8,903 bases of DNA from Bacteroidales bacterium UBA2559 (lineage in GTDB: Bacteria; Bacteroidota; Bacteroidia; Bacteroidales; Bacteroidaceae). The notes under the pieces were generated by a model. It had not been told where the DNA came from. It did not search any database and was given only the letters and a program-made list of their open reading frames with translations. The stretch is taken from assembly GCA_002340405.1 (NCBI GenBank), contig DDLZ01000138.1:1-8903 (forward strand), read 5' to 3'. The translations under genes were made by a program, and so were the position numbers. Below are positions 2,796-7,563 of the stretch, in pieces; position 1 is the first letter of the stretch, and each line of letters opens with the position of its first letter.

Positions 2796-3479
2796 ATGTG
2801 GTTAATTGATTCATCAATCGGAAGAAAAGTGGTGATGAGTGTTACCGGTGCTGCTTTGATCCTTTTTTTGACTTTCCACATGGCAATGAATTGCGTGGCC
2901 CTGATCTCGGGTGATGCATACAATGCCATTTGCGAATTTCTGGGAGCCAACTGGTATGCACTGGTAGGTACGGTGGGACTTGCTGTTCTAGTCTTAATCC
3001 ACTTTGTTTATGCTTTTTGGCTTACGCTGTTAAACAGAAAAGCCAGAGGCAGGGAGAGGTATGCCGTTAACAAGAGGTATGATACAGTGGAGTGGGCATC
3101 ACAAAACATGTTTGTGCTGGGCATAATCGTAGTTTTGGGACTCTGCCTCCATCTGTTCAACTTCTGGTACAAGATGCAGTTGCAGGAGATTTTGGGTACA
3201 ACCGCAGTTATTAACGGTCAGTCAATATCTCCCACAGACGGTGCATTCTTAATTCGGTACACCTTCTCACAGTGGTACTATGTGCTGGCTTACGTAGTAT
3301 GGTTGGCGGCGTTATGGTTCCATCTCTCACACGGTTTTTGGAGTATGTTCCATAGTGTGGGATGGAGTGGAAGCAAATGGCTGGGACGCTGGCAGGTTAT
3401 AGGGAACATTTACGTTACCTTGCTGGTTTTGGGATTCCTGAGCGTGGTGCTTTTTTACTTTTTCAAGAGTATTTTTTAA
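2796..3479 (+). CDS. frdC: Fumarate reductase / succinate dehydrogenase cytochrome b subunit
   Basis: This is the single membrane-anchor subunit of the class-B (Wolinella/Bacillus type) complex, 227 aa. It carries two b hemes and passes electrons between menaquinol and the FrdAB part. Five membrane segments are visible at about residues 12-32, 55-79, 104-124, 159-180 and 201-223. Candidate axial heme ligands are H28, H69, H119 and H176 (H179 is an alternative), one in each of the first four segments; their spacing resembles the four heme histidines of the B. subtilis SdhC family. The ATG is the first after the predicted promoter, and frdA starts 7 bases after its stop. The order C-A-B with one anchor is typical of Bacteroidales, where the enzyme mainly reduces fumarate to succinate. 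Direction of catalysis cannot be read from sequence. Confidence 0.93.
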   Translation: MWLIDSSIGRKVVMSVTGAALILFLTFHMAMNCVALISGDAYNAICEFLGANWYALVGTVGLAVLVLIHFVYAFWLTLLNRKARGRERYAVNKRYDTVEWASQNMFVLGIIVVLGLCLHLFNFWYKMQLQEILGTTAVINGQSISPTDGAFLIRYTFSQWYYVLAYVVWLAALWFHLSHGFWSMFHSVGWSGSKWLGRWQVIGNIYVTLLVLGFLSVVLFYFFKSIF

Positions 3480-3486
3480 ACTGTAA

Positions 3487-5457
3487 ATGCAAACGAAAAT
3501 GGCTACTATAGATTCAAAAATTCCCGAGGGCGCGTTAGCAGAAAAATGGTCTAACTACAAGGCTCATCAGAAGCTTGTCAACCCGGCCAATAAGCGTAAG
3601 CTCGATATTATCGTGGTAGGTTCCGGCCTTGCCGGCGCTTCGGCGGCCGCAACGCTTGGCAGCCTCGGTTTCAAGGTAAAATGTTTCTGCATTCAGGACT
3701 CTCCCCGTCGTGCACACTCAATAGCTGCACAGGGCGGTATCAACGCAGCAAAAAACTATCAGAATGACGGAGACTCCGTGTATCGTCTCTTCATGGATAC
3801 GATCAAAGGCGGCGATTACCGTGCACGTGAGGCTAACGTATATCGTCTGGCTGAAGTCTCGAATAATATAATAGATCAGTGTGTGGCGCAAGGAGTACCT
3901 TTTGCGCGCGAGTATGGCGGCACACTTGCCAACCGCTCATTCGGCGGTTCTCAGGTGTCGCGTACATTCTATGCCCGCGGACAGACAGGTCAGCAGTTGT
4001 TGCTGGGGGCCTACTCCGCTTTATGTTATCAGGTTAATCAGGGTAATGTGGAGCTGTTCACCCGTTGCGAAATGCTGGATCTTGTCATGATAAAGGATGA
4101 TAAGGGCAAGGAGCGTGCACGCGGCATAATCTACCGTGACCTTGTGAGCGGCGAAATCAAGCGTTGCTCGGCCCACGCCGTGGTAGTGGGAACAGGCGGA
4201 TACGGAAATGCCTATTTCCTCTCTACAAATGCCATGACAAGTAACGGATCGGCTATTATGCAGTGCTATCGTAAGGGTGCATGGTTTGCCAACCCCGCTT
4301 TTGCACAGATCCACCCCACCTGTATTCCTGTACAGGGTGACAAACAGTCCAAGCTGACTCTTATGTCGGAGTCTCTTCGTAACGACGGCCGTATATGGGT
4401 TCCCAAGAAACTTGAGGATGCGCAGAAGCTGCAGAAAGGTTTGATAAATCCCAACGATATTCCCGATGAGGACCGTGATTTCTATCTGGAGCGCCGTTAT
4501 CCTGCATTCGGCAATCTGGTGCCCCGTGACGTTGCTTCACGTGCCGCCAAGGAGCGTTGCGACAAGGGCTATGGCGTGAATGCCACCGGTTTGGCCGTCT
4601 TCCTGGATTTCAAATATGCCATACAGACTTTTGGCAAACAGGTTATAGCCGACAAATACGGCAATCTGTTTGACATGTACGAGGAGATAACCGATGTCAA
4701 TCCCTACGAAAATCCTATGATGATATTCCCCGCCATACACTACACAATGGGCGGTCTTTGGGTTGACTACGAACTTCAGACCTCAATACCCGGTCTTTTC
4801 GCCATAGGTGAATGTAACTTCTCTGACCACGGAGCCAACCGTTTGGGAGCATCGGCCCTTATGCAGGGACTTGCCGACGGTTACTTTGTGCTGCCATATA
4901 CCATCCAGAGCTATCTGGCCGACCAGATCTCTATCCCGCGTTTCAGCACCGACCTGCCGGAGTTCGAGGCTGCCGAGAAAGCTGTCAAGGAGAGGATAGC
5001 CAAGCTGATGAGAATAAACGGAAAACGTTCCGTTGACTCCATACACAAAGAGCTTGGCCACATCATGTGGGAGTATGTGGGTATGGGACGCACCGAGGAG
5101 TCGCTTAAGACTGCCATCAAGAAACTGGACGAGGTTGAAAAGACATTCTGGACAGACCTGCGTATTCCGGGCGACGCTCAAACTCTGAACGTCGAACTTG
5201 AAAAGGCTCTGCGTCTGATAGATTTCATTGAGACCGGCAAGCTCATGGCTTATGATGCCCTTAACCGCGAGGAGTCGTGCGGCGGTCATTTCCGCGAGGA
5301 GCATCAGACACCCGAAGGCGAGGCACTGCGTCACGATGACAAATTCTCATACGTGGCCTGCTGGAGCTATAAGGGCGAAGGCAAGAAGCCCGAAATGCTC
5401 AAGGAGCCGCTCAACTATGAGTTTGTTAAGGTAGAAACCCGTAATTATAAGAACTGA
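3487..5457 (+). CDS. frdA: Fumarate reductase / succinate dehydrogenase flavoprotein subunit
   Basis: This catalytic subunit reduces fumarate to succinate on covalently bound FAD, on the cytoplasmic side. Visible motifs are the dinucleotide fold GSGLAG (45-50); HSIAAQGG with H77 as the likely flavin-linking histidine; HPT (276-278) of the dicarboxylate site; PRDVASRA with R347 as the likely proton-donor arginine; H418 in HYTMGG; and [15 protein letters not shown] near the C-terminus. The length (656 aa) fits class-B FrdA and the protein appears intact. The frame can start at 3487 ([11 protein letters not shown]) or at the ATG at 3499 ([11 protein letters not shown]). From memory, Bacteroides homologues begin close to the second, so 652 aa may be the true length. 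It lies 7 bases after frdC and 15 bases before frdB. It ends with tandem stops, TGA TAA. Confidence 0.96.
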
Positions 5458-5472
5458 TAAAAAAGCATCAAT

Positions 5473-6051
5473 ATGGAAAAGACTATAAGCTTTAAACTGA
5501 AAATTTGGCGCCAGAGAGGACCCAAGGAGAAAGGACAGTTCAAGGTGTATGAAATGAAAGACATCTCGACTGACGCCTCGTTCCTTGAGATGCTTGACAT
5601 CTTGAATGAGCAGCTTATCAATGCCGGCGAGGAACCGGTAGTGTTTGACCATGACTGCCGTGAAGGCATTTGCGGCATGTGCTCACTATATATCAATGGT
5701 TATCCCCATGGCCCTGCTACAGGTGCTACCACCTGCCAGCTCTATATGCGTCGTTTTAAGGATGGTGAGACAATTACGGTTGAACCCTGGCGTTCGGCAG
5801 GTTTCCCCATAATACGCGACCTTATGGTTGACCGCACAGCATACGATAAGATCATGCAGGCAGGCGGTTATGTATCAATTAACACCGGCGGTGTACCCGA
5901 TGCTAATTCGATCCCGATATCCAAGGAGAAGGCCGATCTGGCTATGGACGCCGCTTCGTGCATAGGCTGCGGCGCTTGTGAGAATCTCTGTCCGTCACGC
6001 CCCATAAGTGCCATTACAGTTAATGGAATATCTATCCACCACAACGCTTGA
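5473..6051 (+). CDS. frdB: Truncated, apparently chimeric fumarate reductase iron-sulfur subunit
   Basis: FrdB normally carries electrons from the cytochrome to the flavin through [2Fe-2S], [4Fe-4S] and [3Fe-4S] clusters and is about 240-255 aa in class-B enzymes; this frame has only 192. Residues 1-169 are ordinary FrdB: the [2Fe-2S] cysteines C62, C67, C70 and C88 are present, and the next cluster begins correctly at C163, C166 and C169 (CIGCGAC). After that the text changes in frame to [16 protein letters not shown] and ends at 192. C173 completes a ferredoxin-like CxxCxxCxxxCP, but the rest of the C-terminal domain, including the later cysteines needed for [3Fe-4S] and for the fourth [4Fe-4S] ligand, is missing. 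The new tail resembles small 4Fe-4S ferredoxins. As written it is unlikely to be a working FrdB. The upstream genes frdC and frdA look intact, so either a true fusion/deletion or an assembly join is suspected. Confidence 0.85.
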
Positions 6052-6055
6052 TATT

Positions 6056-7384
6056 ATGAAAAGAAGAGAATTTTTAAAATATATGGGATTGGGAACGGCT
6101 GCTGTTGCACTTGATTCCTGTACCCCGGAATCTGTCAAGAAAGAATCAACATCAAATAAAGAGCTGCGCGGAAAGATGTTGCAAAACTATCCCGGTGTCG
6201 GCATATTGGGCTATGGCTGCATGCGCTGGCCCCAAAAACGTAATGAACAGGGCCGTAATGTCGTAGATCAGGAAGAGGTAAACCGTCTGGTAGATTTTGC
6301 TCTTGAGCATGGAGTGAACTATTATGATACAGCGCCTTCCTATATAGGCGGTGAGTGTGAACGCATTACTTCCGAGGCACTGAATCGTCATCCGCGCGAA
6401 AGCTGGTTGCTGGCAACCAAACTGTCTGCCTTCGGTAATACCACATACGACGGTTGTGTGACAATGTACCGCCGTTCAATGGAGATTTTCAAAACGGACT
6501 ATATTGACTATTACCTGCTCCACTCCGTCCCGAACGAAAATGATCTGAACAACCGTTTCGCCAGGATAGGAATTATGGATTTCCTTCTCAAAGAACGCGA
6601 ATTGGGCCACATCCGAAATCTCGGATTCTCGTTTCACGGCAATAAAGAGGGTTTTGACGAACTGATGGTACTGCATGACAAATACAGATGGGATTTCGTG
6701 CAGATCCAGATGAACTACATTGACTGGGAAAATGCCGGCGGCCGAAATGCCCCTGCCAACTACCTATATGCCGAGCTTGACAAGCGCGAGATACCTATTA
6801 TCATTATGGAACCGCTTCGGGGCGGAGCATTAGCGGACATCCCCGCACAGGTAGCCGATCAGCTTAAAGAACGTGAGCCCGAACGCTCCATTGCCTCTTG
6901 GGCATTCCGTTTTGTGGGCAGTTTCCCGCGCGTAAAATGTGCCCTAAGCGGCATGACCTACATGGAGCACCTGCAGGACATTCTGGAGACATTTATGGAC
7001 TTCCAAAAGTTGGACGAGGAGGAAAATAAACTGCTGCTCGACATTGCCGACCAGATGGTAAACTATCCGCTGGTAAACTGCACGACCTGCAACTACTGCA
7101 TGCCCTGTCCTTACGGCATCAATATTCCCGGTATATTCGCGTTTTACAATGATAACGTGATTGCCGGTACCTACGTCAGAAGCAAGGAGCAGAAGAATTA
7201 CAACCGGGCGCGCCGTAAGTACCTGCTGGCCTACAACGAAGCCATTTCCACCGTACGCCAGGCCGACCACTGCATATCCTGCCGCCGGTGCGAAAGGGAG
7301 TGTCCGCAAAACATCCGTATTGCCGATGAATTGCGCCGTATTGACCGCTACATAGAGAGCCTCAAGCGCGAAACACTCGAATAA
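6056..7384 (+). CDS. Aldo/keto reductase with C-terminal 4Fe-4S dicluster domain and twin-arginine-like leader
   Basis: A 442-aa redox protein. The leader MKRREFLKYMGLGTAAVALD has the twin-arginine pattern RREFLK, then a hydrophobic core and S-C at 21-22, which could be a weak lipobox; export folded and perhaps lipid-anchored is therefore likely. The barrel (about 45-330) shows the aldo/keto reductase tetrad D91, Y96, K122 and H156 (YYDTAPSY, ATK, YYLLH). The C-terminus carries CTTCNYCMPCP (C342, C345, C348, C351) and CISCRRCERECP (C406, C409, C412, C416), enough for two [4Fe-4S] clusters. The ATG at 6056, 4 bases after the frdB-fusion stop, gives the leader; the same frame is open back to 6008 but would bury it. 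The substrate is unknown. The tight link to the ferredoxin-like tail suggests that a ferredoxin was its original operon partner. Confidence 0.88.
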   Translation: MKRREFLKYMGLGTAAVALDSCTPESVKKESTSNKELRGKMLQNYPGVGILGYGCMRWPQKRNEQGRNVVDQEEVNRLVDFALEHGVNYYDTAPSYIGGECERITSEALNRHPRESWLLATKLSAFGNTTYDGCVTMYRRSMEIFKTDYIDYYLLHSVPNENDLNNRFARIGIMDFLLKERELGHIRNLGFSFHGNKEGFDELMVLHDKYRWDFVQIQMNYIDWENAGGRNAPANYLYAELDKREIPIIIMEPLRGGALADIPAQVADQLKEREPERSIASWAFRFVGSFPRVKCALSGMTYMEHLQDILETFMDFQKLDEEENKLLLDIADQMVNYPLVNCTTCNYCMPCPYGINIPGIFAFYNDNVIAGTYVRSKEQKNYNRARRKYLLAYNEAISTVRQADHCISCRRCERECPQNIRIADELRRIDRYIESLKRETLE

Positions 7385-7484
7385 TATTACAAAAAAACGG
7401 AGACTTTACTCCTTACTCTGTTCGGGACCTTATACATCCCGAAACTGACGTAAGAAAAGGATCAGCTTACAGACGTAACAGGTA

Positions 7485-7538
7485 ATAAGTGTTTGACCCC
7501 CGAAGATTTTTCACAATCTTCGGGGGTCAAACACTTAT
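7485..7538. terminator. 24-bp perfect hairpin between convergent operons
   Basis: Bases 7485-7508 and 7515-7538 are exact reverse complements, with the 6-base loop TTTCAC. The core is GC-rich (CCCCCGAAG paired with CTTCGGGGG). It lies about 100 bases past the aldo/keto reductase stop and 25 bases past the nqrF stop, so it most likely ends transcription from both sides. Neither side has a clean run of T after the stem, which is a weak point; a dispersed palindromic element is the alternative. A smaller 7-bp stem (7421-7427 with 7437-7443) lies before it. Confidence 0.7.
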
Positions 7539-7563
7539 CTATCAATTTCAGACAGAATAATTA

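Follow-up and report, generated by a model that had tools for sequence, protein, structure and literature searches.

Genes of the frd region and make-up of the 5473–6051 frame

The window analysed takes up all 8903 bases of contig C141. Its draft genome is 82.69% complete and comprises 158 contigs totalling 1,776,696 bases. The window carries complete genes for two subunits of fumarate reductase: the cytochrome b subunit, frdC (2796..3479, plus strand; TIGR02046), and the flavoprotein subunit, frdA (3487..5457, plus strand; NF005749), both of which match their models over nearly the full length. Upstream of frdC lie three minus-strand genes (460–2496) that were not found in the frd regions of seven relatives. 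One of these specifies a 405 amino acid protein without a Pfam or NCBIfam match, with matches in only three of 37 genomes, its own included; the product of its neighbour (737–1282) has a LuxR-type DNA-binding domain.

After frdA, a frame of 192 amino acids (5473..6051, plus strand) reads as FrdB through the motif CIGCGAC, which ends at residue 169, and then continues for 23 residues of a different protein. Three parts can be distinguished. Residues 1–162 (5473..5958, plus strand) are the 5' part of frdB, comprising the 2Fe-2S domain and the start of the second domain, as recognised by NF005746, Fer2_3 and identity to the database protein P0001. The 21 bases that code for CIGCGAC (5959..5979, plus strand) are common to FrdB and a polyferredoxin, as judged by codon comparison with both gene sets. 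The remainder (5980..6051, plus strand) is the 3' end, the last 23 codons and the stop, of a gene for a NapH-like membrane polyferredoxin, identified by its tail matches and by protein P0192. The next gene specifies an aldo/keto reductase with C-terminal 4Fe-4S motifs (6056..7384, plus strand; Aldo_ket_red, Fer4), which the adjacency of orthologues reveals to be the usual partner of the polyferredoxin. It is followed on the opposite strand by nqrF, and the region between the two (7385–7563) holds a perfect 24-base inverted repeat (7485–7508 / 7515–7538).

The FrdB model NF005746 covers only residues 6–176 of the 192, corresponding to profile positions 2–172 of 250 (299 bits), in agreement with an earlier, sequence-only reading in which FrdB was normal to residue 169 and ended at 192. 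The N-terminal 2Fe-2S domain is present (Fer2_3, residues 8–124, 77.5 bits), with cysteines at 62, 67, 70 and 88; the other cysteines kept are 163, 166, 169 and 173. Cysteines 218, 224 and 228 of P0001, which we take from FrdB/SdhB structures to be ligands of the [4Fe-4S] and [3Fe-4S] centres, are absent and the C-terminal helical domain is incomplete; because of this absence, that reading was right to state that the frame has no second cysteine cluster. Residues 1–169 are a normal FrdB front; the helical second domain that follows the motif in the FrdB/SdhB family is missing together with its three cysteines. The nearest solved chain, 9lay_B (FrdB/SdhB), matches residues 7–180 of the frame and 7–250 of P0001. 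The tail retains a CxxCxxCxxxCP motif; the frame has neither the membrane part with which the polyferredoxin begins nor its remaining 4Fe-4S motifs.

In order to place the join, the frame was compared codon by codon with 27 frdB and 21 polyferredoxin copies from relatives. The frame is frdB-like before 5959, like both genes from 5959 to 5979, and mostly polyferredoxin-like from 5980; across the seven motif codons the identity to frdB drops while that to the polyferredoxin climbs. The join is thereby placed at the 21-base motif, as had been proposed from the letters alone (some 20 bases coding for CIGCGAC).

The parent genes in related genomes

Fumarate reductase of Bacteroides is described as passing electrons from quinol to fumarate (PMC7002350) and the Fe-S subunit of the enzyme as the electron wire to the flavin (PMC5210497). 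Some match to the 192-residue query was obtained in 59 of 61 genomes, the source genome included. Among the 36 other genomes of the same genus, 28 have an frdB match that stops at query residue 175 while the open frame around it goes on (in G012, G013, G020 and G023 it begins part-way into the gene), three have a partial or broken frdB (G010, G026 and G036) and five show no frdB body (G004, G015, G019, G028 and G033). The distance from CIGCGAC to the stop is 89 residues in 28 of the 29 frdB loci fetched from relatives, as it is in the 251-residue FrdB; in the 29th (L025), which was left out of this count, the motif continues normally. frdB runs into the tail of the window in none of the 36 genomes and in none of the 60 relatives overall. 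Full-length homologues ending in this tail, which the earlier reading had regarded as the mark of a normal family variant, were thus not encountered among these 60.

The protein search gave a similar picture for the best 120 of 8000 scored matches, which are cluster representatives and may not include the genome of the window. P0001 (251 amino acids; 10 members on nine contigs) shows no difference from the window over residues 1–169 and then continues as a normal FrdB, while the other 119 proteins listed differ at six or more of these 169 positions. The tail motif ENLCPSRP occurs in none of the 120, all of which cover only 90% of the query. A degenerate junction pattern had no match in a collection of species genomes, which may lack records close to that of the window. 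The exact junction had none in viral contigs, where relatives of FrdB were likewise not found; these two negative results are uninformative. Two of the proteins listed, P0015 and P0023, are FrdB of odd length (217 and 224 amino acids); each stems from a single contig and ends abnormally. They are likely to be sequence or assembly errors, and neither has the tail of the window.

The donor of the tail is well represented in the genus. In 21 of 36 genomes of the genus, residues 161/162–192 correspond to the closing residues of a long frame, with 84–94% identity; this count leaves out weaker matches (46–71%) in G019, G024, G030 and G032. In the same 21 genomes an orthologue of the reductase (75–81%; two cut short) starts 7–9 bases after the tail match. 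That an Fe-S protein gene upstream of the aldo/keto reductase had supplied the tail was therefore correctly anticipated. The donor is not the small ferredoxin that had been envisaged; it is the C-terminus of a membrane polyferredoxin of about 470 amino acids, which matches many 4Fe-4S ferredoxin models and is named "4Fe-4S binding protein" in some sources. The NapH model gave 87 bits with a relative's copy (L045), which is under its curated cut-off of 213. P0192 (493 amino acids) has the last 30 residues of the window exactly, and is the only one among 120 matches listed to do so. The window has these 30 residues, and the distance to the reductase, in common with such polyferredoxins, but it contains no more than their C-terminal end. 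From protein identity, P0001 and P0192 would both appear to derive from the species of the window. The polyferredoxin and the Fe-S aldo/keto reductase form a conserved pair (L045 92–2838 and orthologues, 21 of 36 same-genus genomes), and the start of the reductase of this pair resembles, by eye, a Tat-type signal.

The two parent loci lie apart. Both frdB (whole or part) and the polyferredoxin-reductase pair are present in 18 same-genus genomes, in three of which frdB is broken or partial, and in all 18 they are on separate contigs; in G011 the positions on the contigs put them at least about 215 kb from each other. The reductase was found in none of the seven frd regions fetched from relatives, and frdC, frdA or nqrF in none of the 13 reductase regions. 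Upstream of the polyferredoxin, rnhB lies within about 1 kb in three loci (L162, L164 and L168). On the other side of frdB, a cobalamin adenosyltransferase gene faces it in five of seven relatives and is not in the fetched region of the remaining two, which reveals that real changes of synteny also occur in this genus.

The source assembly and the shared motif

The missing halves of both genes were sought in the source genome. The complete FrdB of a relative matched C141 alone, up to query residue 176, apart from a hit on C71 at chance level (E-value 0.02). Neither a second contig carrying the 3' end of frdB nor another full-length frdB, both proposed earlier as checks, was therefore found in this genome. 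The same applies to a ferredoxin gene ending in the same tail: the tail is on C141 only, and the 5' part of the polyferredoxin orthologue was not recovered from this genome. C66 carries a paralogue, with an identity of 43–44% for the main match and 37% for its front part; weak stretches of similarity to the polyferredoxin were seen on C121, C71 and C2.

The DNA that follows frdB in G002 has counterparts in the source genome, on C76 and C91. The last base of C76, 4897, falls within the first part of the cobalamin adenosyltransferase gene. Judged from the distances in G002, about 1 kb of sequence that would connect the frdB break with this contig is missing. The draft is heavily gapped: 47 runs of N, of which 26 are exactly two N long, were counted in 24 stretches (266,567 bases), with one contig wholly N and some of the longer runs possibly due to masking, as against two runs in 24 stretches of relatives (369,637 bases). 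The window itself has no N, at the join or elsewhere.

It had been suggested that the two genes could be near-identical over some 20 bases. In 14 relatives having both, the 21-base motifs are identical at 15–17 of 21 positions with exact runs of at most eight, and the longest word common to the two genes (10–16 bases) lies outside the motif. Using the codon usage of the window, the chance of one gene pair sharing all 21 bases is about 0.0023. The source genome has no other copy of the motif within three mismatches, and the repeat search within the window listed no repeat at the frdB join. Since the intact parent genes are absent from this assembly, a long bridging word between them can only be inferred; the relatives do not bear out the near-identity that had been suggested.

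Origin of the join

We consider it highly probable (about 90%) that the 192-residue frame arose when the assembler wrongly joined the first part of frdB to the 3' end of the polyferredoxin gene, at the cysteine motif that the two have in common. Two loci that are apart in relatives would have been joined by a short-read assembler where both encode CIGCGAC; graph paths or reads of both would have met at the motif, C141 taking the wrong exit, and the 3' end of frdB and the 5' end of the polyferredoxin gene would have ended up in fragments that were not assembled or not binned. The cell itself would then have an ordinary fumarate reductase, with a normal frdB of 251 codons. The join retains both frame and register, as expected of joining through a common motif and as a random chimera would seldom do; therefore sequence similarity was the probable bridge, most likely in the assembly graph and less likely in the cell. 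Also in favour of a misjoin are the heavily gapped state of the draft, the absence of both missing halves, the retention on C76 of the genes that follow frdB, and the reductase-nqrF neighbourhood, which is likewise unlike that of relatives (on different contigs in 12 of 12). Against it stand the lack of N at the join, the failure to see a long shared word in the 14 relatives, the low chance of identity over all 21 bases, and the real synteny changes in the genus.

The first two of these facts also speak for the next explanation, that frdB and the polyferredoxin gene recombined at the motif in this strain by a natural inversion, translocation or other rearrangement such as a deletion, through which both genes were lost and a truncated FrdB is made. 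An in-frame, in-register join at a homologous motif is also expected from recombination, and neither missing half is in this genome. In such a case a real strain would have lost quinol:fumarate reductase through recombination between frdB and the polyferredoxin gene, its short FrdB consisting of the 2Fe-2S domain and one ferredoxin-like motif. We regard both the rearrangement and this consequence as improbable. Without the three cysteines taken to be cluster ligands the fusion protein is unlikely to work, P0001 is an intact FrdB with no difference at the 169 residues, and a reciprocal product was not found in the 83% complete assembly. A simple deletion fusing two operons, the other origin considered in the sequence-only reading, fits badly because the genes of the usual 3' side of frdB, those found there in five of seven relatives, remain in this genome on C76. 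Of the two origins considered there, the join by an assembler is favoured. The join was in no other genome or protein searched.

Less probable still is that the join belongs to a minority strain, the main population being normal, and that the assembler chose the minority path. The bin does come from a draft assembly of many contigs, and P0001 is a normal FrdB with the same front; this explanation, however, requires a real rearrangement as well as an unusual choice of path, and a second instance of the join was not found among the 120 proteins listed or in the species-genome collection. That a normal short FrdB of this lineage ends in a ferredoxin-like tail is hardly credible, in spite of the CxxCxxCxxxCP of the tail, and was rejected, with no instance in 60 relatives, 120 listed proteins or, for the junction pattern, the species-genome collection.

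An assembler misjoin would make the window resemble chimeric contigs of metagenome-assembled genomes, in which, likewise, a short homologous stretch brings together loci that relatives keep apart, within a draft that is fragmented and gapped. It differs in that its two parents look native to one genus, so lineage-based checks for mixing or contamination would probably not flag the join. The case illustrates clearly how a plausible in-frame fusion gene can come out of a fragmented metagenome bin, and how an organism could then be falsely concluded to be without fumarate reductase. Conserved Fe-S cysteine motifs may be natural spots for such joins.

Two other places in this genome deserve attention. 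On C55, rnhB (L180 1841–2372) is interrupted by a two-N gap at which roughly 75 bases are lost, which may be another assembly scar; the end of this gene overlaps a convergent ABC-transporter gene. Within the window, the reductase is next to nqrF, while all 12 same-genus genomes having both genes carry them on separate contigs, and in nine of the 13 reductase regions fetched from relatives an SprT-like gene accompanies the reductase in place of nqrF. A search of this genome found no repeat behind this neighbourhood, since a 20-base arm of the hairpin is confined to C141. The adjacency may reflect another false join, or else a local rearrangement that is real.
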